From positions 1 to 35,779 of the forward strand of contig JAPLKF010000092.1 in NCBI GenBank assembly GCA_026388215.1: DNA of 35,779 bases, given 5' to 3'. This document shows, piece by piece, positions 17,139 to 35,779 of this stretch (position 1 is the stretch's first letter; every line of letters starts with the position of its first letter). This DNA comes from Pseudomonadota bacterium. Its GTDB lineage: Bacteria; Desulfobacterota; Syntrophorhabdia; Syntrophorhabdales; Syntrophorhabdaceae. The translations under genes were made by a program, and so were the position numbers. The notes beneath the pieces are model-generated. The model had not been told where the DNA came from and made no database searches. It saw only the letters and a program-made list of their open reading frames with translations.

Positions 17139-17930
17139 GTGCATATTTTAGTCTTCATAAAGCAGGTGGCTGATACAGAAGCGAGAATTATAATAAAGGG
17201 TGATCAAAAGTCTCTGGAGATAGAGAATAAATATAACATAAACTTTTTTGATGAGGTTGCAATTGAAGAGGCGATAAGAATAAAGGAAAGGATTAAAGAT
17301 AGTCAGGTCACGGTATGCACCTATGGGACAAAAAAGGCAGTTGAGGCACTGAGGACAGCTATAGCAATGGGTGCAGACCGAGCCTTTTTGCTGGACAATA
17401 CTAATTTAGAGAATCATGACCCTTTAATAATAGCAAAAATACTTTCGAGCTTTGCAAAAAGGGAAGGTTTTGATTTGATTCTGTGTGGAAGGCAGGCAAT
17501 TGATGATGAGAATGCGAATATTGGGGCTATAACCGCAGAATTTTTAGGGATACCGCATGTAAGTGCAATCTTAAAATTAGAAATTATGGATGAAAAAAAG
17601 GTAAGGGTGGAGAGTGAGCTGGAAGGCGGCAGAGAGGTGGTGGAGGTACAGTTGCCTGCGCTTCTCACAACTCAAAAGGGTTTAAATGAGCCGAGGGTTC
17701 CACTCATTACCGGTGTTATGAAGGCCATGAAGGCTGCCATACCTTCAATAGACCCTTGTTCCCTGGGAATAGCAAAAGAAGATATAAATACAGATGCATC
17801 AAGGGTAATTGTCCTCTCCTATGAACCTCCAAAAAAAAGACCACCTGTGAAGATAATAGAGGGAGAAACACCCGAAGAAAAGGTTGAGAATCTGATGAAG
17901 GTCTTAAAAGAAGAAGCAAAGGCAATATAG
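17139..17930 (+). CDS. etfB: Electron transfer flavoprotein beta subunit (FixA-like)
   Basis: 263 residues, translated from a GTG start with AAAGGAGG nine bases upstream. It has the ETF-beta fold: MHILVFIKQVADTEA, FFDEVAIEEAIRIKE, ALRTAIAMGADRAFLL, LILCGRQAIDDENANIGAIT and LPALLTTQKGLNEPR. With EtfA it accepts electrons from the dehydrogenase encoded upstream. The following FixC and FixX genes suggest the FixABCX-type arrangement. Whether this subunit binds AMP or a second, bifurcating FAD cannot be decided by eye. Confidence 0.95.
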   Translation: MHILVFIKQVADTEARIIIKGDQKSLEIENKYNINFFDEVAIEEAIRIKERIKDSQVTVCTYGTKKAVEALRTAIAMGADRAFLLDNTNLENHDPLIIAKILSSFAKREGFDLILCGRQAIDDENANIGAITAEFLGIPHVSAILKLEIMDEKKVRVESELEGGREVVEVQLPALLTTQKGLNEPRVPLITGVMKAMKAAIPSIDPCSLGIAKEDINTDASRVIVLSYEPPKKRPPVKIIEGETPEEKVENLMKVLKEEAKAI

Positions 17931-17944
17931 AAGGGAGAAAAGTC

Positions 17945-18925
17945 ATGTCTAAAGATATACTCATATTTGTGGAATGCAAAGAAGGTACTGTGAGAAAGGT
18001 ATCACTTGAGTTGCTAACTAAGGGCAAGGAATTTACAGAGAGATTCTCCTCCAATTTATATGCAGTTCTTATCGGTTACCAGGTTAAAGGAATTGCTGAA
18101 GAATTAAAGGCGTTTTCGGACAAGGTACTTGTTGTGGATAATGAAATATTAAAGAATTATAGATGGGATACCTATGCGGCTGTATTAGAACAGCTCGTAA
18201 AGAAATATATACCTTATATGGTGTTTGGTGCATCCACCATAACGGGTAAGGACCTTTTTCCAAGACTTGCTGCAAGATTGAATGTGACGATAGTGTCTGA
18301 TGCAGTTGGGATAGATTTTGGTGGTGAAGGTGTGAGGATTAAAAAACCCATCTTTGGCGGAAAAATTATATCCTGGACAGCATGCAAGGAAGGCTCAACT
18401 CCGCTTGTAACATTCAGACCGAATTCGTTTTCTATCCATAAAAGGTCATTAAACGGTGAGTTAATAGAAGAATCATTGAAGATAGCAAAAGATCCAAGAT
18501 TAAATGTTGTAAATATTGAAAGGGGTGGTTCAAAGAAGGTGGATATACAGGAAGCGGATTTTATTATCTGTGGTGGCAGGGGTATGAAGGGGCCTGAAAA
18601 TTTTCAAGTCCTTGAGGAAATTGCAGATATTATGGGGGGAAGGGTAGGTGCTTCCCGTGCTGTGGTGGATAGCAAGTGGAGAGAATATGGTGACCAGGTT
18701 GGTAAAAGCGGAAAGACAGTATCGCCAAAACTCTATATAGGCTGTGGTGTATCGGGTGCATTACACCATACAATGGGAATGGACACATCAAAAGTAATCG
18801 TTGCGGTGAATAAAGACCCTAATGCCCCTATCTTTCAGTATGCTGATTATGGAATCGTAGATGACCTCTTCAATATATTGCCTATCCTTAAAGATGAATT
18901 AAAAAGGGCAAAGGAAGAAGTTTAG
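17945..18925 (+). CDS. etfA: Electron transfer flavoprotein alpha subunit (FixB-like)
   Basis: 326 residues. The N-terminal half is the divergent Rossmann-like domain (VFGASTITGKDLFPRLAARL). The C-terminal FAD-binding half has the diagnostic run GGRGMKGPENFQ, GGRVGASRAVVDSKW, QVGKSGKTVSPKLYIGCGVS and ADYGIVDDLFNILPIL. It has no extra N-terminal ferredoxin domain, unlike some anaerobe EtfA proteins. GGGAG precedes the ATG. It starts 14 bp behind etfB and ends one base before fixC. Confidence 0.96.
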   Translation: MSKDILIFVECKEGTVRKVSLELLTKGKEFTERFSSNLYAVLIGYQVKGIAEELKAFSDKVLVVDNEILKNYRWDTYAAVLEQLVKKYIPYMVFGASTITGKDLFPRLAARLNVTIVSDAVGIDFGGEGVRIKKPIFGGKIISWTACKEGSTPLVTFRPNSFSIHKRSLNGELIEESLKIAKDPRLNVVNIERGGSKKVDIQEADFIICGGRGMKGPENFQVLEEIADIMGGRVGASRAVVDSKWREYGDQVGKSGKTVSPKLYIGCGVSGALHHTMGMDTSKVIVAVNKDPNAPIFQYADYGIVDDLFNILPILKDELKRAKEEV

Positions 18926-18926
18926 A

Positions 18927-20216
18927 ATGGAAAAGATTGATGTAGTTATAGTAGGGGGAGGACTTTCAGGGCTTTCCTGTGCTTATAAGCTTGCAGAAAA
19001 GGATATGCAGGTAATTGTCCTTGAAAGGGGGGATTTCCCTGGTAGCAAAAATGTAACCGGTGGAAGGCTCTATCTCATGCCCATAAAGGAATTGATTGGA
19101 GATATGTTTGATGATGCACCCTTTGAGAGAAAGGTTGTCCGGGAGAGGTGGAGTCTTTTTGGGGAAGGAAACTCAATCAATATTGACTTTGCAAGTGAAA
19201 AACTTAGAGTAGAAGACCATAGCTATACAGTGCTCCGTGCTAACTTTGATAGATGGTTCTCAGAAAAGCTAATGGAGAAGGGTGTATTTGTGATCCCAAA
19301 ATACAGGGTGGATAACCTTTTGTGGGAGGAAAACAGGATAGTTGGCATAAAGGCCGGAGAAGAAGAGATATATGCAAACGTTGTAGTTGCCTCAGATGGT
19401 GTTCTTTCTTTTATGGCCGAGAAGGCGGGATTGAGAACAAAGATGAAACCCAAAAACTATGCAGTTGGCATAAAAGAGGTAATAGAACTGCCAAAAGAAA
19501 AGATAAATGACAGGTTCAATGTAGATAACGGGGATGGTTGTGCCCATCTGTTTGTGGGGGATGTAACAAAAGGTCTTTTTGGTGGAGGATTCTTATATAC
19601 AAACAGAGAGACTATTTCACTCGGTATAGTAGCAGGTATAAATGCGCTGATGGGAAAAACCCCCTCTATTGAAACCCATGCGTTGATGGATGCATTTAAG
19701 GAAAGGTATGAGATTAAGAGACTTATAGAGGGAGGGGGCCTTGTAGAATACTCGGCCCATATTATTCCAGAAGGTGGTTATGATGGTATCTCGAAACTTT
19801 ATGGCAATGGTATCATAGTAACAGGCGATGCGGCAGGTTTTGCGCTGAATATGGGGGTAACAGTAAGGGGAATGGAATTTGCTATTGCATCAGGAATAAT
19901 TGCCGCAGAAACCGTTATGAAAGCAAAAGAAGCTGGTGACTATTCGGGGAAGACACTTTCATATTATGAAAATAGATTAAAAGAAACCTTTGTCTTGAAG
20001 GACATGGAATCCTGTAGAAAAATGCCCGAGTTTCTCGACAACGAAGATTTTTTTACATATTATCCGAAATATTTTCCTGATTTTTTAGAAAAGGCCATGT
20101 GGTTTGGTAAAGAACCTAAAGAAAGGGTAGGAAAGACCTTGTGGGGGGCATTAAAAACCTCCGGTATGTTGAGTTTTAGAAGATTGAAAGACCTTTATAA
20201 AATTAGGAATATATGA
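18927..20216 (+). CDS. fixC: FixC-type ETF:quinone oxidoreductase-like flavoprotein
   Basis: 429 residues. The FAD-binding loop is VVIVGGGLSGLSCAYKLAEK (residues 5-24), followed by LERGDFPGSKNVTGGRLY. A second FAD contact is YGNGIIVTGDAAGFALNMG. The C-terminal part with GALKTSGML matches FixC / ETF dehydrogenase length and order. In the FixABCX complex FixC relays electrons from ETF to quinone. Here it would receive electrons from the acyl-CoA dehydrogenase through EtfAB at the inner face of the membrane. No membrane helix is visible. It follows etfA after one base and precedes fixX by 11 bp. Confidence 0.95.
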   Translation: MEKIDVVIVGGGLSGLSCAYKLAEKDMQVIVLERGDFPGSKNVTGGRLYLMPIKELIGDMFDDAPFERKVVRERWSLFGEGNSINIDFASEKLRVEDHSYTVLRANFDRWFSEKLMEKGVFVIPKYRVDNLLWEENRIVGIKAGEEEIYANVVVASDGVLSFMAEKAGLRTKMKPKNYAVGIKEVIELPKEKINDRFNVDNGDGCAHLFVGDVTKGLFGGGFLYTNRETISLGIVAGINALMGKTPSIETHALMDAFKERYEIKRLIEGGGLVEYSAHIIPEGGYDGISKLYGNGIIVTGDAAGFALNMGVTVRGMEFAIASGIIAAETVMKAKEAGDYSGKTLSYYENRLKETFVLKDMESCRKMPEFLDNEDFFTYYPKYFPDFLEKAMWFGKEPKERVGKTLWGALKTSGMLSFRRLKDLYKIRNI

Positions 20217-20227
20217 GGTGGTGAGAT

Positions 20228-20506
20228 ATGAGAATTGATGAAAAGCTTGCCATTGATGCATTTAAAACGGACAAAGAAAGTCATATAAAGATAAACCATG
20301 AGATATGCAGGTCAAAATGCAAGGTAAAATATTGTTTGTTTATCTGCCCCGGCCATCTTTATTCCTATAACGAAGAAACAGACGAGGTTGTTGTGGAGTT
20401 TGCAGGATGCCTGGAGTGCGGTACCTGTAAAGTTGCGTGTATCGAAGGTGCCATAGACTGGACATACCCTAAAGGGGAGTTCGGGGTTCAGTACAGATTT
20501 GGCTAA
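20228..20506 (+). CDS. fixX: FixX-type ferredoxin-like protein
   Basis: 92 residues. Eight cysteines fall in two groups: C27, C31, C36, C40 in ICRSKCKVKYCLFICPGHLY, and C61, C64, C67, C71 in GCLECGTCKVAC. The second group is the FixX C-x2-C-x2-C-x3-C pattern. With the Cys of the CPG motif this gives at least one [4Fe-4S] cluster. The end (DWTYPKGEFGVQYRFG) is typical of FixX. It is the electron partner of FixC and the last gene of the operon. GAGGTGG precedes the ATG. The AT-rich gap that follows belongs to the next transcription unit. Confidence 0.94.
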   Translation: MRIDEKLAIDAFKTDKESHIKINHEICRSKCKVKYCLFICPGHLYSYNEETDEVVVEFAGCLECGTCKVACIEGAIDWTYPKGEFGVQYRFG

Positions 20507-20643
20507 GATTATCTGCTAAAAAGTAACCCTTCAGTTTCATTTTTTAGTCTATTCCAAATTAACACTTGATGCTGGTTTTTTACCCTCCATATAGACTGAT
20601 TTTTTGAAATATTTTTACTGTCTACTATGATTTTAACAAAATA

Positions 20644-20748
20644 TATACTGTATAATATAATTTTTATTATTTGTATATTTAGTAATAATTACAATATATT
20701 ATAAATATTACATAATATTCTTAGTGAATCCTTGTTATGTACAGTATA
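20644..20748. promoter_or_regulatory. Palindromes TATAC(A/T)GTATA upstream of the first HTH-cyclase gene
   Basis: TATACTGTATA at 20644-20654 is a perfect palindrome around its central base. TGTACAGTATA at 20738-20748 differs at one position, and a weaker copy TTTACTGTCTA lies at 20614-20624. The same motif recurs five times before the paralogous gene at 32212. The remainder of the 334-bp gap (20507-20840) is AT-rich without coding signals. I infer operators, perhaps for the MerR-like domain coded downstream. Confidence 0.55.
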
Positions 20749-20757
20749 ATTTTTTTC

Positions 20758-20784
20758 TTGACAATTATATTTGGACTTTATAAA
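20758..20784 (+). promoter_or_regulatory. Promoter of the first HTH-cyclase gene
   Basis: TTGACA at 20758-20763, an unusually short 15-bp spacer and TATAAA at 20779-20784. The arrangement, including the upstream AATTTTTTTCTTGACA, is shared with 32113-32139 before the paralogue. A short spacer is typical of MerR-regulated promoters only in the opposite sense (those are long, 19-20 bp), so the mode of control is open. A palindrome TGTTTAAACA lies at 20808-20817 in the leader. Confidence 0.5.
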
Positions 20785-20840
20785 TTATACTATCGTGGTA
20801 AGTAATCTGTTTAAACAATGCTATTTTAAGGGTGTTAACT

Positions 20841-22346
20841 ATGTCTAAAGATACTGCTCAAACGTGGATTAACAGCAAGGAAATATTAAAAAAATGCGGT
20901 ATTTCCAGGGCAACATTAAACAACTATATTAAACTTGGGATTATTCCAAAGCCTATCGTCCAGAAACCACAAGAGGATATGAAAAAGACAAAAAAAATAG
21001 GCTATTTTCCGCAGATGGTTTTAAACAATATAGAAATGGTCAAGCGTTTAAAAAAAGAGGGGAATTCTGTAGAAAATATAGCCCAAAAATTAAAGGTAGT
21101 ACCTATTTCTGAACCTGTTACTGTGGAAGAGAAACAAAAGGTATCTGAAATTTTACACACTGGAAGTAAAGAGCTCAGGTTAACTATCGATAATATCGAG
21201 ACCCCGGCCTACCTTCTTAACTATCAATTTGAAATAGAGTGGATAAACAGGGCAGCAGAGGAAAAAATTTTTAATCAATCGGTCAGATTAATAAAAGACA
21301 CCGAGTTGAGAAATATTTTTAGATTATTCTTTAACTTGAAATTTCATGACAACATTCAGAACTGGGAGAACCTTTTTGACTTCCATGCAGCCTTTTTAAA
21401 ATCAAAAATTTCCAGGGACCTTGTTGAAAAACTATACCAGGGAATTTCTGAAAGTGAGGTCAGTTTTTTAAAAAAGGCATATGACAGGGCTCTCAGTCTG
21501 CCCAAACAAGTAATTAATCAAAATCTTATTACTATTACGAGACAGGATGGATCAAAAGAGCCGTATCGGCTCTATACCACATTTTTCAGGGAAGGTTTAT
21601 TTTTCCTTTATGTACCAAGTGATAGTTTATTTGAAGGAATAACAGAGTTTTTATCAAACCGCGGGCAGGTAATCAACGAATTGCTTCACCAACGTATGTC
21701 AACCCTGGTTTATTTTTGTGTACTTGTCGCTGATTTACAGGATTCAGTCCGTATATGCGCTGAACTGCCACCGGAAGAGTACTTTGAATTGATCAACCTG
21801 ATATGGAAAACGATGGAAGAATCTTTTAAAAAATATTACGGCATCTATGGAAAACATGTTGGTGACGGAATTGTGTATTATTTTTTAAAGGAACGGGGTT
21901 CAAACTATATTATGAATGCCATCAATTGTGCAATGGAAGTAAAAGAAAAAATGGAAAAACTTTCCATCGAGTGGAAAATACGTAAAAAGTGGGCCAATGA
22001 GCTTTATTTGAATATCGGCATAAATGAGGGCCAGGAATATATTAGTGCAATCCACGCCTCAACAAGTATAGAATTCACAGCCCTCGGTGATACTATAAAT
22101 TATGCGGCGAGGTTATCCGATATTGCCCAATATGGTTCCATATTCACTACAAAAAATTTGATGAATAAATTAAAAGAAGAAGACCGTAAAAATATCCGTT
22201 TTGGTATTAAAAGAAAATTACAGGATAGGGAAGTATTTATAGAGAATACATTTTCCCGGGTTATCGACCTTGTAAATGGAGATGATATGAGACGTGGAAA
22301 ATTTATGGATATTACAGCACTTCCTGTCACAGAAATTATTAGGTAG
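20841..22346 (+). CDS. MerR-like HTH - PAS-like - class III nucleotide cyclase fusion (copy A)
   Basis: 501 residues from the ATG at 20841, chosen because AAGGG lies before it; a GTG at 20832 is in frame. Residues about 10-80 are a MerR-type winged helix (ISRATLNNYIKLGIIPKP, VKRLKKEGNSVENIAQKL). Residues about 115-270 hold a PAS-like domain (LTIDNIETPAYLLNY, FEIEWINRAAEE). The C-terminal 210 residues are a class III cyclase: metal Asp D298 (VADLQDSVRI) and D342 (KHVGDGIVYYF) exactly 44 apart, purine-selecting K338 and T413, transition-state N420 and R424 in GDTINYAARL. All catalytic positions are present, and the Lys/Thr pair suggests ATP and class IIIb. It has no membrane segment, so the protein is soluble and could bind DNA. 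A paralogue lies at 32212. I know of no characterised protein with this architecture. Confidence 0.85.
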   Translation: MSKDTAQTWINSKEILKKCGISRATLNNYIKLGIIPKPIVQKPQEDMKKTKKIGYFPQMVLNNIEMVKRLKKEGNSVENIAQKLKVVPISEPVTVEEKQKVSEILHTGSKELRLTIDNIETPAYLLNYQFEIEWINRAAEEKIFNQSVRLIKDTELRNIFRLFFNLKFHDNIQNWENLFDFHAAFLKSKISRDLVEKLYQGISESEVSFLKKAYDRALSLPKQVINQNLITITRQDGSKEPYRLYTTFFREGLFFLYVPSDSLFEGITEFLSNRGQVINELLHQRMSTLVYFCVLVADLQDSVRICAELPPEEYFELINLIWKTMEESFKKYYGIYGKHVGDGIVYYFLKERGSNYIMNAINCAMEVKEKMEKLSIEWKIRKKWANELYLNIGINEGQEYISAIHASTSIEFTALGDTINYAARLSDIAQYGSIFTTKNLMNKLKEEDRKNIRFGIKRKLQDREVFIENTFSRVIDLVNGDDMRRGKFMDITALPVTEIIR

Positions 22347-22546: not shown

Positions 22547-23038
22547 ATGGACAAAATTTGCATCGTAAAAAGAAGGAAAGGTGTAAAACAAGGACAGGAT
22601 TCAGTAGAAAAGGTTGTTGAGGTCACACCTTATACCTTGACAGACACCACCGGTCAGAATAAAGATGAAGGTTCAGTTTTTGAAGAGGTTACCAGCGATA
22701 AAGATGAAATAATCTCTGTTGAACTAACTCCTGAGCAATCTACAATGGTTCAGTCCTTGGAGTATATAAAATCTTTATCCCTGGATAAAGACCACGGTGT
22801 AAAATTGGATATGCTGCGAGATGCTGATGGGAAGGTTCTTTTCAATTTCCATTTTAGGCCTGTATATACGGTAAAGATGCTTAACTCCAAAAATGTATGT
22901 GAGATGTTACAAATAGGAAGAAGTTTTTTGGCAAAACTTGTTAAAACAAAAAAGATCAAGAGTTATAAAATTGGTAGACGGAGACGTTTTTCGTTGGAGG
23001 ATATCCTTGAGTATCTTAGCAAAAGTCTGGAGATATAG
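22547..23038 (+). CDS. Excisionase-like helix-turn-helix protein
   Basis: 163 residues. The first 60 are basic then acidic and look unstructured. Residues 61-105 form a small mixed segment (LTPEQSTMVQSLEYIKSLSL, GVKLDMLRDADGKVLFNFHF). Residues 113-160 match the HTH_17/excisionase winged helix: NSKNVCEMLQIGRSFLAKLV, KIKSYKIGRRRRFSLEDILE. Such domains bind DNA in phage excisionases and in small transcription regulators. No integrase or att site is visible, so a regulator is more likely than a recombination factor. AAGGAAG precedes the ATG. It ends 47 bp before the ExeA-type ATPase and probably shares its transcript. Confidence 0.75.
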   Translation: MDKICIVKRRKGVKQGQDSVEKVVEVTPYTLTDTTGQNKDEGSVFEEVTSDKDEIISVELTPEQSTMVQSLEYIKSLSLDKDHGVKLDMLRDADGKVLFNFHFRPVYTVKMLNSKNVCEMLQIGRSFLAKLVKTKKIKSYKIGRRRRFSLEDILEYLSKSLEI

Positions 23039-23085: not shown

Positions 23086-24402
23086 ATGTATTACGAATAT
23101 TGGGGTCTTAAGAAACCACCTTTTGACAATGTCCCTGACCCATCAATGTATGTTGAATCCCATATATCGGTGGAGAACACTATAGCAGAAACACTTTTTG
23201 CTATAGAGGAAGGGAATGAATGCATTGCGGTCATTGTTGGAGATGTGGGTTTGGGGAAGACCTTATCGTTGAGAATAATCCTTGATTCCCTGGACCAGGA
23301 AAAATATAAGATAGCTTTTATTACCAATCCCGATATGTCCTTTGTACAGCTTTTGAGAGAAACTATCGGTCAGTTGACCGGGAAACAGTGTGAAACAAAA
23401 GGGAAGATAAACCTTCTGGAGACCTTTAATAAACTTTTATTTGAGACTATAGATGAAGGTAAAAAGGTCCTTATTTTTATCGATGAGGCGAATGCCATTT
23501 CCCCGGCTAATCTGGAAAGTTTAAGATTGCTTACTAACATGCAGGATGACACCAGAAATTTGTTTACTATTGTCCTTTCAGGGCAGATGGAGCTGGCAAG
23601 GAGATTAGAACATCCAAAACGCGCTAATCTGTTTCAGAGAATCGGAACCTATAACAGGATAGACAAAATTCAATCTGAAGAACTTTTAAAAAACTATGTT
23701 GAAACACGCCTGAAACTGGCGGGAGCAACAAAAAAAATATTTACCGAAGATACCTTCCCTTTTTTATGGGAATATTCTGAACATGGTATACCCCGTCTTA
23801 TTAACAAAATTTGTAAATTGTGTTTGAAGGCAGGGGAAACGAATGAGTTTGATAAGATAACTGGGGAGGTTGTAAATCAGATTGGGGAACGTTTTCAAAA
23901 ATTAACTGGACCGGACGTTCAAAAGAGGAAACCTAGAAAAAGGCCTGCAAAAGAACCAGTTCGAGAAGAAAAAGAACCCATACATGAAGAGATTGAAACC
24001 AAAATAGAAAAAGAACCAGAAAAGGTTTTTGTAAAACCGGAAGTAGAGAAGGTTGAGCATATAGAAGAAAGACCTCCTGAAGAAAAAATAAAACCAGTTT
24101 TAGAACCGGAACCCCCCAAGAAAACTGCAGAAATAATGAAAGAGGTTCCGACAGAGGCGCCAGAAGAGACAAAAATTGGTGAGTTTAAGATTAAAATTGA
24201 TATTCCTCCCAATATACTTGAGCAAGCTCAATCATCAAACAGGGAAAGCCGTCTTAAAATAGCCGGAGTTTTAGCTGCCCAGACCCTTGAAAAATATCCT
24301 CAATTGACGTCTTCGTCTTCAGCTGATCCGGTTTCTATATGGAGTGAAATCAGGGATTTAATCTTGAATAAGCTTGAACGAGAAATCGGGCCAACTCAAT
24401 AA
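23086..24402 (+). CDS. ExeA/GspA-type AAA ATPase with charged C-terminal extension
   Basis: 438 residues. MYYEYWGLKKPPFDNVPDPS is the classic start of ExeA-like ATPases. Walker A is GDVGLGKT (52-59), Walker B VLIFIDEAN (128-136), a sensor strand lies in FTIVLSGQMELARRL, and the lid reads HGIPRLINKICKLCL. The domain ends near 285. A Glu/Pro/Lys-rich linker (about 290-360) leads to a small C-terminal domain (KIKIDIPPNILEQ and WSEIRDLILNKLE). ExeA proteins remodel peptidoglycan for secretin assembly or serve transposition (TniB type). The cell-wall LysM/PG-binding domain of true GspA is not seen. GGAGAG precedes the ATG. Confidence 0.85.
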   Translation: MYYEYWGLKKPPFDNVPDPSMYVESHISVENTIAETLFAIEEGNECIAVIVGDVGLGKTLSLRIILDSLDQEKYKIAFITNPDMSFVQLLRETIGQLTGKQCETKGKINLLETFNKLLFETIDEGKKVLIFIDEANAISPANLESLRLLTNMQDDTRNLFTIVLSGQMELARRLEHPKRANLFQRIGTYNRIDKIQSEELLKNYVETRLKLAGATKKIFTEDTFPFLWEYSEHGIPRLINKICKLCLKAGETNEFDKITGEVVNQIGERFQKLTGPDVQKRKPRKRPAKEPVREEKEPIHEEIETKIEKEPEKVFVKPEVEKVEHIEERPPEEKIKPVLEPEPPKKTAEIMKEVPTEAPEETKIGEFKIKIDIPPNILEQAQSSNRESRLKIAGVLAAQTLEKYPQLTSSSSADPVSIWSEIRDLILNKLEREIGPTQ

Positions 24403-25762: not shown

Positions 25763-25837
25763 ATGGTGAAGAATGAGGTCGAGGTTTTTCGTAAAACAAT
25801 AATATTTAAACAGTGTCCAAAGATCAAAAACCGATGA
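25763..25837 (+). CDS. 24-codon leader ORF overlapping the cyclase start
   Basis: MVKNEVEVFRKTIIFKQCPK and four more residues, with a strong AAGGAG six bases before its ATG (25751-25756). Its TGA overlaps the in-frame ATG of the cyclase as ATGA at 25834-25837. The cyclase itself has no ribosome-binding site, so translation of this leader could deliver ribosomes to it. Alternatively the leader is the true N-terminus of the cyclase separated by a one-base indel. Homologues would decide. Confidence 0.45.
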   Translation: MVKNEVEVFRKTIIFKQCPKIKNR

Positions 25838-27792
25838 AAAAAGAGAAAGAATTCACTGAACATGATTATCGGGAAATCACTGGGTCTGAAGTTATTGGAA
25901 GTTGGCCGTTTCGTATCCGGGATTTTATCGTTCATTACCTGGAACTTTTATTTGTTTTGCTAATTGCATGCTTGGTAATAGCTGTTTTCTTTCTTTTTCC
26001 CTTCAAATTTGCATTCTTGAACCTTTTTTATCTCCCTGTACTCACAGCCGCATATTTTTTAGGAAAACGCTATGCTTTCCTGGCATCCATACACATTATC
26101 TTGCTTGTGGTTGTCTCGGCCTTTATTCGACCCGAATGGTTCACAGTAGGAGGAACCCAATTAAGCACCATGGTTATGATTTCTATCTGGGGGGGATTCC
26201 TTGTTATTACCAGTATAGGTATTGGTTCGCTTCAAGAGCGTCTTGCCAAGGGTTTTGCGGAAACCCGCCATCTTTACGAAGAATTAAAAAGAGGCCGCGT
26301 AGTAGAAGAGATGAAGGAAAAAGTTGAAAAAGCGCTCTACGCCACTATGGATCCTGTAGTAGCAAAGCTAGCCACCGAAGATAAATTAAGGTTTGAAAAA
26401 AGAGAAATCAGTATTATGTTCACTGATTTAACGGATTTTACCACATATTCAGATCAACATCCCGCCGATGTGGTTCTCGAGGAACTTAATTCATTCCTTG
26501 GCCAAATGGAACCAATTACAGAGATGTACAAAGGTCACATTGATAAGTACATGGGTGACGGGGTTATGCTTGAGTTTGGTGCCCCCATAGATTATGACCA
26601 GCATGCCCTCATGGCTGTTCTTGCTGGCTGGAAAATGCAAGAAAAGGTTAAAATCTTGAGCCTGCCCTGGCGATTACGGTGTGGCATTGCCACAGGAAAT
26701 GTGATTATAGGTATGTTTGGGGTACGTCGTAAGGCATATAGTGCCCTTGGTGACCGTGTAAATGTTGCCAAGCGTCTGGAAGAAATATGTGAACCTGGAA
26801 AGGTTTTTATTGACGAACCAACATACTTAGCGGTCGAGCCTTTTATAAACGTAAATAAACTCCGAAATAAAGGATATGGACGCCAGACAGATAAAGAATT
26901 GCTTGAACAAGTAAGTGTTCTTGAAGAGAGGTTAGCCCAGGATACTGAAAATCCTGAGATACTATACAAAATTGGTAAAACTTATTACGAACTACGAGAT
27001 GCTTCAGAAGCTATCCGATACTTTGAGCGTGCCTTAGCTTCGGACCCGGAATCGACTGAAATTAGACTCGCATATGCTGATGCAAACCTTAAGAAAGAAG
27101 AGTTTGAAAAAATCCAGCTTAAGGGAATATTGCAGAAGATTACTATTTACGAGGTCACGGGTATTAAAAACCGTTGGGATGACCCTTCAGTAATTCCACT
27201 ATCACTATCTTCAAAATACCGCCAACTTGAAGCTCTTAAGGACATCCCATCTGACTTAGTTCGCTCCGTTGAAGCCCTGGATGGTTCCATAGGTCATGGA
27301 CAGGTTGTAGGATTACTTTCATATGCAATAGCCAATCATATGAATTTGAATGAGGAGTTTAAAAAAACAATCTTACAGGCTGGATATCTTCAGGATCTTG
27401 GGAAGGAAGCTGTACCCCATCACATCTTAAATCGTTCTGCAAGCCTCACAGAACAAGAAGCAAAGTTAGTGGAAAAGTATGTTCTGGAAAGTGTGGCCAT
27501 TTTAAAACGTTTAGGATATGTGGAACCACAACTTCTTGAGATTGTGAAACACCATCACGAAACGTGGAATGGAAATGGTTACCCAGACGGGTTAAAGGGG
27601 GAAGATATTCCCGTCGGGGCACGTATTACATGTGTCGCCGAAGCATACAGCGCTATGACATCATGGCGTCCCTATCATGAACCTTGGGATTCTCGTATGG
27701 CCTTGAGTGAGCTCCGTAAGGCAGTGGAAAGAGGGGTTTATGACCCTCAGGTGGTTGAAGCCCTCATCGAGGTCCTTAAACCGGATTCTTAG
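25834..27792 (+). CDS. Membrane class III cyclase fused to TPR-like and degenerate HD-GYP domains
   Basis: 652 residues from the ATG at 25834; an in-frame GTG at 25813 adds seven. Three to four hydrophobic segments (about residues 30-140: LELLFVLLIACLVIAVFFLF, FLASIHIILLVVVSAF, MVMISIWGGFLVITSIGIG) anchor it in the inner membrane. The cyclase domain has D198 (IMFTDLTDFT), K238 and D242 (DKYMGDGVML), S303 at the second purine-contact position, and GDRVNVAKRL. A TPR-like pair follows (ILYKIGKTYYELRDASEAIR). The C-terminal HD-GYP domain keeps HHE and GYP (HHETWNGNGYPDGLKG), but the HD motif reads Q520-D521 and the usual D..DAM is EAYSAM. It may make a cyclic nucleotide and use the HD domain as a sensor rather than a c-di-GMP phosphodiesterase. 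Confidence 0.85.
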   Translation: MKKEKEFTEHDYREITGSEVIGSWPFRIRDFIVHYLELLFVLLIACLVIAVFFLFPFKFAFLNLFYLPVLTAAYFLGKRYAFLASIHIILLVVVSAFIRPEWFTVGGTQLSTMVMISIWGGFLVITSIGIGSLQERLAKGFAETRHLYEELKRGRVVEEMKEKVEKALYATMDPVVAKLATEDKLRFEKREISIMFTDLTDFTTYSDQHPADVVLEELNSFLGQMEPITEMYKGHIDKYMGDGVMLEFGAPIDYDQHALMAVLAGWKMQEKVKILSLPWRLRCGIATGNVIIGMFGVRRKAYSALGDRVNVAKRLEEICEPGKVFIDEPTYLAVEPFINVNKLRNKGYGRQTDKELLEQVSVLEERLAQDTENPEILYKIGKTYYELRDASEAIRYFERALASDPESTEIRLAYADANLKKEEFEKIQLKGILQKITIYEVTGIKNRWDDPSVIPLSLSSKYRQLEALKDIPSDLVRSVEALDGSIGHGQVVGLLSYAIANHMNLNEEFKKTILQAGYLQDLGKEAVPHHILNRSASLTEQEAKLVEKYVLESVAILKRLGYVEPQLLEIVKHHHETWNGNGYPDGLKGEDIPVGARITCVAEAYSAMTSWRPYHEPWDSRMALSELRKAVERGVYDPQVVEALIEVLKPDS

Positions 27793-31923: not shown

Positions 31924-31992
31924 TTAGACATTTCAACATTTTTAATTATACAGTACATATTTATTTAAACAGTATAATTATTTAATGTCTAA
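31924..31992. promoter_or_regulatory. Inverted repeat TTAGACATT / AATGTCTAA flanking two palindromes
   Basis: TTAGACATT at 31924-31932 and its exact complement AATGTCTAA at 31984-31992 enclose two copies of the ACAGTATA-type palindrome. The same nonamer pair occurs again at 32151-32196. The word is not seen before the paralogous gene at 20841. Chance in AT-rich DNA cannot be fully excluded. Confidence 0.45.
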
Positions 31993-32137
31993 GTAAAAAA
32001 TAATATTGTCTATATATAATTTTACATATTCTCTTCAAATTTTTAATTTAATCTCTATTTTACAGTATATTTTAAAATATTTAAATTATTTTTAAACAGT
32101 TTAATTTTTTTCTTGACAAATGTATTTATACTGTATA
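31947..32137. promoter_or_regulatory. Five palindromes of the TATAC(A/T)GTATA type
   Basis: Copies: TATACAGTACA (31947-31957), TAAACAGTATA (31966-31976), TTTACAGTATA (32059-32069), TAAACAGTTTA (32093-32103, perfectly symmetric) and TATACTGTATA (32127-32137, perfectly symmetric and identical to 20644-20654). The last covers the -10 box of the promoter at 32113-32139. The 478-bp gap 31734-32211 has no coding signal otherwise. I infer repressor or activator sites shared with the first HTH-cyclase gene. Confidence 0.6.
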
Positions 32138-32139
32138 AA
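32113..32139 (+). promoter_or_regulatory. Promoter of the second HTH-cyclase gene
   Basis: TTGACA at 32113-32118, 15-bp spacer, TATAAA at 32134-32139, preceded by TTAATTTTTTTC. Sequence and spacing match the promoter of the paralogue at 20758-20784. A TATACTGTATA palindrome overlaps the -10 box. Confidence 0.55.
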
Positions 32140-32211: not shown

Positions 32212-33732
32212 ATGATAGATAGCAAAGAGCTTTTAAAAAAAACAAGTATATCCAGGGCAACTCTTAATAATTACATACGATTGGGTATTATTCCAAAACC
32301 AATAGTAAAAAAACCTGATAAGGAAAATAAGAAAATAAAAAAAATAGGGTACTTTTCTGAATCAGCACTAGAAGATATCAGAACCGTTAAACGTTTAAAA
32401 AAAGAAGGAAACTCCATTGATAATATAGCTAATATTTTCAGAAATACATTCAATAAAATGAAAGTTGCAGTAGAAGATGATTTGAAAGTTTCCCCTAAAG
32501 ATGAAGATAAAAAAATCACTGAAAAGATGGTTTCAAGAGAGGATGAAAAACTTACACTCACGATTGATAACATAGAAACCCCGGCCTACCTCATAAATTA
32601 CAAATTTGAAATAGAATGGATAAACCACGTAGCAGAAGAAGAGATATTTCAACAGACGGTAAGGCTCATCAAAGATGCAGAATCGAGAAACATCTTCAGA
32701 TTACTTTTTAATATGCTGTACACTGGCAACGTAAAAAATCTCGAAAGCATTGTTGACCTTCACATGACCTTTTTAAAATCGAAATTTTCAAGAGATGAGG
32801 TATTTAAACTATACTCAGGTATTTCGGAGAAAGAAATTAATTATTTTCAAGGGTCTTACGATAGAACCGATAGTATACCAAAAAAGGATTTAATAACTCA
32901 GACCCATATTGATATTGTGGAACAGGATGGAAATACGAGATCCTACAGACTTTACATCACGTTTTTTAGAGAAGGGTTGTTATTTTTCTACGAACCAAGC
33001 GATACGCTTTTAGAAGGGGTGATAGAATTTCTTAAAAACCGCAGTAAAGTGATTAATGAGTTGCTGCAGCGCCGTATGCCTGCCTTGATCGATTTCTGTG
33101 TACTTATGGCAGATTTACAGGATTCTGTCAGGATATGCGCTGAACTGCCACCGGAAGAGTATTTTGAGCTAATTAATCAGATGAGAAAAAACGTTGAAGA
33201 ATCTTTCAGAAACTATTATGGGATTTATGGAAAACATGCCGGTGACGGGTTAGTCTATTATTTCTTAAAAGACCGTGATTCGCATTATATTGTAAACTCG
33301 CTTAATTGTGCCATGGAATTAAAAAATAAGATGGAAAAACTTTCGGCTGAGTGGAAAGTACGCAAAAGATGGGACAATGAGCTCTACCTGAATATAGGCA
33401 TAAATGAAGGGCAGGAATATTTCAGTGCAATTCATGCTTCAAACAACATAGAATTTGCTGCCTCAGGAGACACCATTAATTATGCAAGCAGGCTATCTGA
33501 TCTTGCCTGTTATGGTTCAATTTTGACCACAAAGAATCTTATAAACAGAATGGCTAAAGAAGATCGCCAAAGGTTTATTTTTGGCATAAAGAGGAAGACA
33601 CTGGGTAGAGGAATATTTATCGAAAACATGTTTTCTAGGGTTGTAGATTTTATACATGTGGATGATCCGAGATGTGGAAAATTTATGGATATTGCAGCGT
33701 TACCTATTACCGAAATTATTGGCAGAGCGTGA
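32212..33732 (+). CDS. MerR-like HTH - PAS-like - class III nucleotide cyclase fusion (copy B)
   Basis: 506 residues, paralogous to the protein at 20841 along its whole length. The HTH (ISRATLNNYIRLGIIPKP), the PAS-like start (LTIDNIETPAYLINYKFEIE) and the cyclase core (DLQDSVRICAELPPEEYFEL) are nearly identical. Metal Asp D301 and D345 are 44 apart, K341 is in KHAGDG, and GDTINYASRL retains the catalytic Asn and Arg. The second purine-contact residue, Thr in copy A, is Ala here (A416 in EFAASGD), so substrate choice or activity may differ. The linker after the HTH is longer and more charged. The ribosome-binding site (AGAGAAG) is weak. The GAF-domain gene begins 47 bp downstream and is probably co-transcribed. 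Confidence 0.85.
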   Translation: MIDSKELLKKTSISRATLNNYIRLGIIPKPIVKKPDKENKKIKKIGYFSESALEDIRTVKRLKKEGNSIDNIANIFRNTFNKMKVAVEDDLKVSPKDEDKKITEKMVSREDEKLTLTIDNIETPAYLINYKFEIEWINHVAEEEIFQQTVRLIKDAESRNIFRLLFNMLYTGNVKNLESIVDLHMTFLKSKFSRDEVFKLYSGISEKEINYFQGSYDRTDSIPKKDLITQTHIDIVEQDGNTRSYRLYITFFREGLLFFYEPSDTLLEGVIEFLKNRSKVINELLQRRMPALIDFCVLMADLQDSVRICAELPPEEYFELINQMRKNVEESFRNYYGIYGKHAGDGLVYYFLKDRDSHYIVNSLNCAMELKNKMEKLSAEWKVRKRWDNELYLNIGINEGQEYFSAIHASNNIEFAASGDTINYASRLSDLACYGSILTTKNLINRMAKEDRQRFIFGIKRKTLGRGIFIENMFSRVVDFIHVDDPRCGKFMDIAALPITEIIGRA

Positions 33733-33779: not shown

Positions 33780-35779
33780 ATGAGAGCAGCACTTGAGAAT
33801 AAATTGTTAGATGTAATTACGTTAAAGAACAAAGACCTTTACTATAAACTACAAATCATCTTTGGTCTTTTTTTTCCTCTCCCTGCAGCAGCTTTTCTAT
33901 TTTTCATTATAAAATATAATGTTTTAAGAGACGGGTCTCTCCACCTGATACTACTCACAATGCTGATTTTTGCTCTCTGTGGCTTCAGCATGTTAAGGAA
34001 CATATTCAGCAAAATCGTAAATTTATCAAGGGATATCTCCGAAAACATAACGGCACAGGTTGCTGGCGTTCAGTTTCAGAGTGAGAAGGATGAATTAGGA
34101 AATTTAGTAAAATCATTCAATACCATTGCGAAGCAATTTAAAGATACTCATAATCTGTTGGAAAAAAAGATATCAGAAATATCAACACTCAAGGAGCTTT
34201 CGGACCTTTGTTATGTGACCTTTGACAACGATGAGCTTTTGTATATTGCTTTGGAACGTGCTTTGAAGTTAGTAAATGCAGATGTAGGTTCTGTTTTGAT
34301 GCTGGAAAGACCACATAGAAAAGCCTTTATTGTCCAATCAACTATCGGACTTGGAAATAAGCTTACAGTAGGGGAAAAAATTGACTTCAACACAAGCATT
34401 GCCAAATATGCGGTAATTAATAAATCTCCTGTTGTTGTTGAAGACATTGAAAAGGATACCCGTTTTGGAAGAAGTAATCGCTCTAACTATGCAACGAAAT
34501 CCTTCGTGTGTATGCCTATCAAGACGATCAAGGATATTATCGGTGTTGTTACAATTTCCCGGCGAGATGATAAAACACCTTTTACCCAGGAAGATATAGA
34601 GGTTTTGACACCACTTTTAAGTAATGTAGCCTTTACATATGAAAACTTACGCCTTGTTAAACAAAATGAGCTGAAAACTGAGTATATAAAGGTGATTGAG
34701 AAAATTTTAAAGAATATTAATTCAAGTTTTCGTGACAGCGATATTATCAACACATTCTTGCGTGATGTCCAAACACTAGTGTCTTTTGATCTTGCCATGA
34801 TTTTAATAAAAGATGAAAACAGGCCTGATAATCTGGTAATATTTGACCTTTTTACCAAGGAATCTACAAATTTTTCAAAGGGTGGCTATTATCCTTACAA
34901 AGGCTCAATCATTGACAAAGTTATGGAGCAGGGAACTACCCTGATTGTGGATGACTTAAATACCCTTTACGGAGAATTTGGAAAAGAACTGTTTATGAAC
35001 AATAATTACAAATCTTGCACTTTAAGTGAATTAAAGACGGGAGGTGATACGAAAGGGGTGTTGATCTTTTTCGCACATGAACCGGAGATCTTTGACAAAG
35101 TCAAAGGGTTTATAGATATAGTGGCAGATAGCGTTTCCCTTGCTATTGCAAAAAACACACTCTCTGTCTCCATTAAAAAACGAAAACAAGAACTGGATAC
35201 ATTAAAACAGATTGGTAATGTTCTTGCTTCATCGACATTTGATATAGACCAGGTTCTCAAGCATACGATGGATATGGTAAGGGTTATCATGAATGTGGAA
35301 GCGGGCTCACTATTACTTTTACATGAAAATGAACTGGAATTCAGGGTTGCCTTTAATCTTAATATGGAGACCATGCGTAAATCGAGGCTCAAGCTCGGTC
35401 AGGGAATTGCCGGTTATGCTGCTACCTGTGGAAAATCGATAATTGTGAATGATGTTGTTAAATCTCCTCATTTTTCACAAGAAATAGACAGAATTACTGG
35501 TTTCAGAACAAAATCGGCTCTGTGTGTTCCCATTATCTCGCAAGGCAAGGTGCTCGGGGTTATTGAACTGCTGAATAAAATACCCGGTGATTTCAGTTCA
35601 AGTGATGAGCATCTATTACAATCGATTGCTTCATCGGTAAGTATTGCAATGGAGAATGCGCGCCTTTATCAAGAAACGGTTTCTATGACAGAACATGAAC
35701 GTGGGATACGACAGATGTTTCAAAAGTTTGTCCCCAAAGAGGTTGTTGATAAAATCATCCATGGTGAACAATTCGGGAA
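33780..35779 (+). CDS. Membrane HAMP - triple-GAF signalling protein, probably a class III cyclase (cut by window end)
   Basis: An uninterrupted frame runs from the ATG at 33780 to the right edge (666 codons, no stop). Two hydrophobic segments (about 21-47 and 54-76: FGLFFPLPAAAFLFFI, LILLTMLIFALCGFSML) are followed by a HAMP-like linker (77-130). Three GAF domains follow at about 137-295 (GSVLMLERPHRKAF, KSFVCMPIKTIKDIIGVV), 305-460 (more divergent) and 472-630 (AGSLLLLHENELEFRVAFN, KLGQGIAGYAA, SALCVPIISQGKVLGVIELL). The last visible stretch, RQMFQKFVPKEVVDKIIHGE, is the conserved helix that precedes class III cyclase domains in bacterial adenylate cyclases, so a cyclase domain should follow outside the window. 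AAGG and GAAG lie before the ATG. Confidence 0.8.
   Translation, partial: MRAALENKLLDVITLKNKDLYYKLQIIFGLFFPLPAAAFLFFIIKYNVLRDGSLHLILLTMLIFALCGFSMLRNIFSKIVNLSRDISENITAQVAGVQFQSEKDELGNLVKSFNTIAKQFKDTHNLLEKKISEISTLKELSDLCYVTFDNDELLYIALERALKLVNADVGSVLMLERPHRKAFIVQSTIGLGNKLTVGEKIDFNTSIAKYAVINKSPVVVEDIEKDTRFGRSNRSNYATKSFVCMPIKTIKDIIGVVTISRRDDKTPFTQEDIEVLTPLLSNVAFTYENLRLVKQNELKTEYIKVIEKILKNINSSFRDSDIINTFLRDVQTLVSFDLAMILIKDENRPDNLVIFDLFTKESTNFSKGGYYPYKGSIIDKVMEQGTTLIVDDLNTLYGEFGKELFMNNNYKSCTLSELKTGGDTKGVLIFFAHEPEIFDKVKGFIDIVADSVSLAIAKNTLSVSIKKRKQELDTLKQIGNVLASSTFDIDQVLKHTMDMVRVIMNVEAGSLLLLHENELEFRVAFNLNMETMRKSRLKLGQGIAGYAATCGKSIIVNDVVKSPHFSQEIDRITGFRTKSALCVPIISQGKVLGVIELLNKIPGDFSSSDEHLLQSIASSVSIAMENARLYQETVSMTEHERGIRQMFQKFVPKEVVDKIIHGEQFG

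Follow-up and report, generated by a model that had tools for sequence, protein, structure and literature searches.

The window, that is, the whole stretch of 35,779 nucleotides analysed here, carries an HTH-PAS-cyclase gene whose product, P0001, consists of an N-terminal helix-turn-helix (HTH) domain, a linker, a PAS domain and a C-terminal nucleotide cyclase domain, in this order. An earlier note on this DNA had placed the 501-residue frame at 20841-22346, and these coordinates were borne out: the gene extends from an ATG at 20841 to a stop at 22346, with a GTG alternative start at 20832, and the reverse strand of the frame is filled with stops. A paralogue, P0002, which is absent from that note, was also found in the window. 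Scanning the window with Rfam and for tRNAs gave no hits. The features are listed by position, with a dot where no strand is assigned.

17139-20506, forward strand: etfB-etfA-fixC-fixX operon, a conserved neighbour, which the HTH-cyclase gene follows in the window's bacterial family
20643-20655, strand (.): operator-like dyad ATATACTGTATAA, 1 mismatch, upstream of P0001
20737-20749, strand (.): operator-like dyad ATGTACAGTATAA, 8 bp upstream of TTGACA (20758-20763) in the P0001 promoter
20771-20783, strand (.): degenerate second operator of the P0001 pair, TTGGACTTTATAA, 34 bp downstream of the 20737 dyad
20841-22346, forward strand: HTH-PAS-cyclase gene P0001, 501 aa
20865-21098, forward strand: MerR-like winged helix-turn-helix domain, residues 9-86
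21174-21638, forward strand: PAS-fold middle domain, MmyB/MltR-like, residues 112-266
21702-22280, forward strand: class III nucleotide cyclase domain, residues 288-480
31965-31977, strand (.): operator-like dyad TTAAACAGTATAA, upstream of P0002
32092-32104, strand (.): operator dyad TTAAACAGTTTAA, upstream of the -35 box of the P0002 promoter
32126-32138, strand (.): perfect operator dyad TTATACTGTATAA, downstream of TTGACA (32113-32118) in the P0002 promoter
32212-33732, forward strand: paralogue P0002, 506 aa, 66% identical to P0001, with equal domain order and Ala at the T413 position
33780-35777, forward strand: GAF-GAF protein, paired with and directly after P0002, running off the window

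The usual gene order in the window's family is mutS2-dnaG-rpoD-(acyl-CoA dehydrogenase)-etfB-etfA-fixC-fixX, followed by the HTH-cyclase gene. Complete orthologues of the GAF-GAF protein, 866 aa in length, have a class III cyclase domain at their C-terminus. The window encodes another class III cyclase at 25813-27792, joined to TPR and HD-GYP-type (HD_5) domains and hydrophobic in its N-terminal region. An AAA ATPase resembling the XrtA/PEP-CTERM-associated ATPase (under the cut-off) lies at 23086-24402, and is preceded by an excisionase-type HTH gene at 22547-23038.

Domains of P0001

Although P0001 itself matches the Pfam model MerR_1 below threshold (E=0.0027, 18.2 bits against a cut-off of 21.6), this model was matched in 42 of 51 relatives, with a best E of 1.5e-6. 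A search of the PDB with the family profile picked up, at E=3.7e-4, the chain 4ua1 ('Regulatory protein'), presumably a MerR-type regulator. The AlphaFold model confidently shows a winged-helix-like pattern over residues 9-86 (H12-19, H23-32, E39-41, E53-57, H59-72 and H77-86), where a winged helix had been expected in residues 10-80, and, among 60 aligned members, those with an HTH show hardly any variation in the DNA-reading stretch ISRATLNNYIKLGI. The profile matches in relatives together with the AlphaFold model thus point to an N-terminal MerR-like winged helix in P0001 despite its own sub-threshold score. At the place of the MerR-type coiled-coil dimerisation helix, after the wing, residues 86-112 form a linker of about 25 residues that is predicted to be disordered in the AlphaFold monomer model.

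A separate AlphaFold model of the middle domain (pLDDT 89) displays the topology of a PAS fold, and Foldseek ranks PAS domains highest among its matches (best E=2.4e-4, modest TM-scores of about 0.3-0.6); the PAS-like middle part claimed before is therefore supported by structure, the P0001 sequence giving no PAS family match. Against the MLTR_LBD/MmyB-like ligand-binding domain (PF17765), P0001 scored under the cut-off (E=0.23), and 10 of 47 relatives gave weak matches at E<0.05 (best E=9.5e-5). A heme-PAS reading, considered from the presence of FixL, DOS and FG214 among the best Foldseek matches and of H182 in a long helix, was not adopted, because H182 occurs in only 47 of the 60 members.

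The cyclase domain was identified by profile, fold and residues alike, as claimed in the earlier note. Guanylate_cyc matches P0001 at 293-448 over the Pfam cut-off (E=1.6e-10) and is matched by all relatives (51/51), and the best Foldseek match is CyaB of P. aeruginosa (3r5g, E=1.3e-10). The active-site set is complete, comprising the metal-binding D298 and D342, the purine-selecting K338 with T413, and the catalytic N420 and R424; of the 60 aligned relatives, 59 retain D298, all 60 D342, 58 K338, 59 N420 and 58 R424. In class IIIb cyclases, ATP is usually selected by the pair that P0001 has in K338 and T413, and cAMP is its predicted product. The T413 position is Ala or Val in 20 of the 60 members, including P0002, so that substrate choice is less certain in these. 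The genome holds five proteins with a cNMP-binding domain. P0001 had further been described as soluble, and this probably applies insofar as no membrane segment is evident in the model.

Spread of the family and its natural variants

A census showed that P0001 is no lone oddity: beside the paralogue in the window, over 60 relatives were found in Desulfobacterota and in Beta-, Alpha- and Gammaproteobacteria, with the architecture and the catalytic residues conserved at 36-70% identity. Among the 60 genomes searched, made up of the window's own and those around it, the gene occurs in 16, all belonging to the same taxonomic family. A scan of one genome per species yielded 63 loci in Desulfobacterota, Betaproteobacteria, Rhodospirillaceae and Cellvibrionales, a lower bound since the scan required exact peptide motifs. 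No relatives were found in the viral contigs searched. The constant element across lineages is the protein, and its neighbourhood differs. In Polynucleobacter, a GGDEF-EAL gene lies upstream of the HTH-cyclase gene and an HD-GYP gene is convergent with it. A PAS-HD-GYP gene closely follows the HTH-cyclase gene in Desulfobulbaceae and related genomes (L051, L059, L063, L064, L067, L068 and L099), hinting at cross-talk between cAMP and c-di-GMP.

Each half of the protein is found retained independently of the other. In three loci (L095, L097 and L112, the last in G221), the protein ends after the PAS domain, lacking the cyclase but keeping the HTH and an operator or operator-like site (see below). 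Conversely, five Rhodocyclaceae members lack the HTH and keep the catalytic residues; the tree nests them among HTH-bearing relatives, suggesting that their HTH was probably lost rather than originally absent. No HTH in another frame was detected near the Rhodocyclaceae genes, nor was a cyclase domain found near the three truncated ones, and frameshifts were rejected as the source of the missing domains. In L041 (6001-7545), a sister of P0001, the cyclase site is dead (K338 to R, N420 to S, R424 to Y) while the HTH is well kept: its identity to P0001 is 83% in the HTH and 64% in the cyclase, compared with 69% and 82%, respectively, for the intact relative L057. Since some relatives keep the HTH and operator without the cyclase and others keep catalysis without the HTH, both DNA binding and catalysis appear from these sequences to be selected for. 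The PAS domain is always kept, whereas each half can persist alone, indicating that it is probably the hub of the family; it may control DNA-binding or cyclase output.

These variants also bear on whether P0001 is primarily a one-component transcription factor, in which the cyclase would serve as an ATP/nucleotide-binding module for dimerisation and sensing and catalysis would be incidental. The HTH, PAS and operator of the cyclase-less members fit this, as does the high conservation of the HTH in L041 without catalytic residues, and two of the three mycobacterial mclx proteins also lack some catalytic residues (PMC4452763). Nevertheless, we regard this reading as unlikely, for the catalytic residues are present in 58-60 of 60 members, full catalytic sets occur in the HTH-less Rhodocyclaceae, and the cyclase is the most conserved domain relative to P0001 in the comparisons made, except in L041, where it drifts after the loss of catalysis.

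A candidate operator at the gene's own promoter

Comparison of upstream regions in the window's family revealed the dyad TTATACTGTATAA with at most one mismatch in 10 of 13 regions; there are 12 such sites in the 13 regions, against a mean of 0.06 in dinucleotide shuffles. The same search upstream of etfB in this family found none, and control of the upstream fixABCX operon by P0001 was accordingly discarded. In its general form across families, the candidate operator is the 13-bp dyad TTAKACWGTMTAA. Outside the window's family, exact TTAKACWGTMTAA is present upstream of 14 of 19 deltaproteobacterial genes but of none of 112 neighbouring genes, and in 16 whole genomes (about 47 Mb) 20 of the 24 exact sites are found in the 450 bp preceding an HTH-PAS(-cyclase) gene, although 14/19 and 20/24 are partly circular because the K and M positions were generalised from these very loci. 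The reversed-pattern control gave six sites in all in these genomes. A stricter form, TTATACWGTATAA, derived in the window's family, is also present at the gene in L048, L050, L060 and L067.

Frequently the dyads occur as pairs with a spacing of 32-35 bp. In the best-preserved promoters (L048, L060, L054, L044, L062 and P0002), the pair flanks CTTGACA, with the second copy lying over the spacer and -10 region, an arrangement suggestive of repression. Classical MerR promoters have a spacer of 19-20 bp; at about 17, that of the paired-dyad promoters does not point to activation through DNA distortion. From the sequence alone, we infer that the HTH of family members binds the dyad and that this binding represses the gene. 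Two imperfect dyads (20643 and 20737) and a degenerate third are located upstream of P0001, the first two falling within the stretch 20600-20840 that had been proposed for a gel shift and thus offering candidate binding sites there. Upstream of P0002, five operator-like dyads were found.

The whole 2.39 Mb genome contains only two exact sites, the one at 32126 before P0002 and one on contig C194. The latter precedes a presumed galT-like gene (our own label; Pfam gives no match) and pilM to pilQ (pilMNOPQ, the type IV pilus operon), and the full paired module is present in this promoter (L136:5211-5356, genome G000). The candidate module thus probably controls the galT-like/pilMNOPQ operon in the window's genome. 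A conserved pil target was rejected, since the three nearest loci checked (G008, G031 and G009) have no operator before their galT-like orthologues, which makes this target lineage-specific at best.

The operator is not universal, as the dyad is missing from most of the HTH-intact members in Betaproteobacteria, Polynucleobacter among them. A betaproteobacterial version was sought and not retained, being seen only at L077 with one mismatch. In genome G017, where the search gave no HTH-cyclase, operator sites lie upstream of a GAF-cyclase gene (L154:1331-1513); the regulator gene may once have stood between these sites and the GAF-cyclase gene and since been lost. In four genomes of one genus, an exact dyad is located between divergent miaA and penicillin-binding protein genes (position 1501 in L152, L153, L156 and L157), three of these genomes being without the HTH-cyclase.

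It is also conceivable that the dyad belongs to another regulator or is a mere promoter element, with the HTH binding elsewhere or making protein contacts. The dyad has a partial likeness to an extended -10 box; some relatives possess exact sites but no HTH-cyclase protein, and HTH-bearing betaproteobacterial members do without the dyad. On the other hand, across the 16 genomes the dyad is nearly exclusive to the HTH-PAS(-cyclase) gene, it persists with cyclase-less versions, and its second copy upstream of the -35 box is beyond what a -10 element explains. We therefore consider this alternative quite improbable and take the conserved paired dyad as dedicated to the gene.

A proposed self-regulating cyclase and its relation to known systems

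With a probability of about 0.7, we propose that P0001 is a PAS-sensing, self-repressing adenylate cyclase that acts as its own transcription regulator. A P0001 dimer would bind the paired dyads, one immediately before the -35 box, its partner over the spacer and -10 region, so that its own synthesis would most likely be repressed. A small ligand bound by the PAS domain would act as a switch for DNA binding and cyclase alike, and the signal would thereby alter cAMP output and enzyme amount together. The cAMP would then act via ordinary diffusible receptors, the cNMP-binding-domain proteins, and the operator module would also govern P0002 and probably the galT-like/pilMNOPQ operon. The idea that DNA binding, sensing and messenger synthesis are joined in one protein thus finds good support at the sequence level, with the domain order kept across phyla and the dyad before the gene.

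In bacterial cAMP signalling, synthesis by a cyclase and DNA binding by a CRP-type receptor are normally the tasks of separate proteins. The earlier note had set P0001 against this route, but a wholesale replacement of CRP is not what we find: the operator occurs almost only at the gene's own promoter, and five cNMP-binding-domain proteins remain. For the same reason, the main role of the HTH would seem to be control of the enzyme's own dosage, with a few extra targets. The family would represent a widespread, apparently undescribed type in which a messenger maker is joined to a DNA reader aimed at its own promoter. Its operator is short and precise, variants without either half provide natural controls, and in the window's genome the candidate operator may tie cAMP synthesis to the type IV pilus operon.

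Coupling between DNA binding and catalysis is possible in P0001. Tentatively, a single dimer might read the operator, sense the PAS ligand and make cAMP, with occupancy and catalysis mutually exclusive or mutually dependent; if so, promoter occupancy would directly set cAMP production. A related and rather doubtful reading, compatible with self-repression as an added step, is that DNA controls the enzyme, operator binding activating or silencing the cyclase and the promoter serving as allosteric effector or scaffold. MerR-type regulators and class III cyclases both act as dimers, the linker between them is short, and near-exclusive placement of operators at the own promoter would let occupancy report the enzyme level. 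The predicted disorder of the linker, however, argues against rigid coupling, and HTH-less members do without DNA input.

CyaB of P. aeruginosa (3r5g) and CyaC of Spirulina (1wc0), which resemble P0001 in catalytic fold and residues, are not known to carry a DNA-binding domain. The fusion of a cyclase to a DNA-binding domain is nonetheless not unprecedented, as the mclx proteins Rv0386, Rv1358 and Rv2488c of Mycobacterium, which are soluble, each unite a class III cyclase with a LuxR HTH and have likewise lost catalytic residues in some members (PMC4452763). P0001 falls outside this group: mclx proteins have an N-terminal cyclase, an NB-ARC/AAA middle and a C-terminal LuxR HTH (PMC4452763), while the P0001 family shows the reverse order with a MerR-like HTH and a PAS middle, belongs to different lineages and has a conserved self-operator. 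Among open-access PMC papers, no description of a MerR-PAS-cyclase was found, so that this architecture and its operator appear undescribed in the literature searched, the cyclase-HTH fusion itself being known (PMC4452763).

MltR, an MmyB-like regulator (PDB 3pxp; PMC3406030), similarly combines an HTH with a PAS-like ligand domain. Its highly conserved P110, A111, N124 and N149 (PMC3406030) have plausible, near-invariant counterparts at similar spacing in P122, A123, N136 and N158 of P0001, as compared from the residue list. These shared residues and the weak Pfam matches give a lead, at the level of a guess, towards an MmyB-like ligand of the fatty-acid type for the PAS domain (PMC3406030). 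MltR differs in having an Xre HTH and no cyclase, and its ligand domain is matched in Pfam weakly and by a minority of P0001-family members; MltR was not adopted as the closest solved structure, 3pxp not being found in the PDB by the family profile. The MerR-family photoregulators LitR/CarH share with P0001 a MerR HTH joined to a sensor domain, and they bind near the -35 region as repressors (PMC9758184), as is proposed for P0001. Different from P0001, they recognise TGTACA-N12-TGTACA, carry B12-related C-terminal domains and lack a cyclase (PMC9758184).
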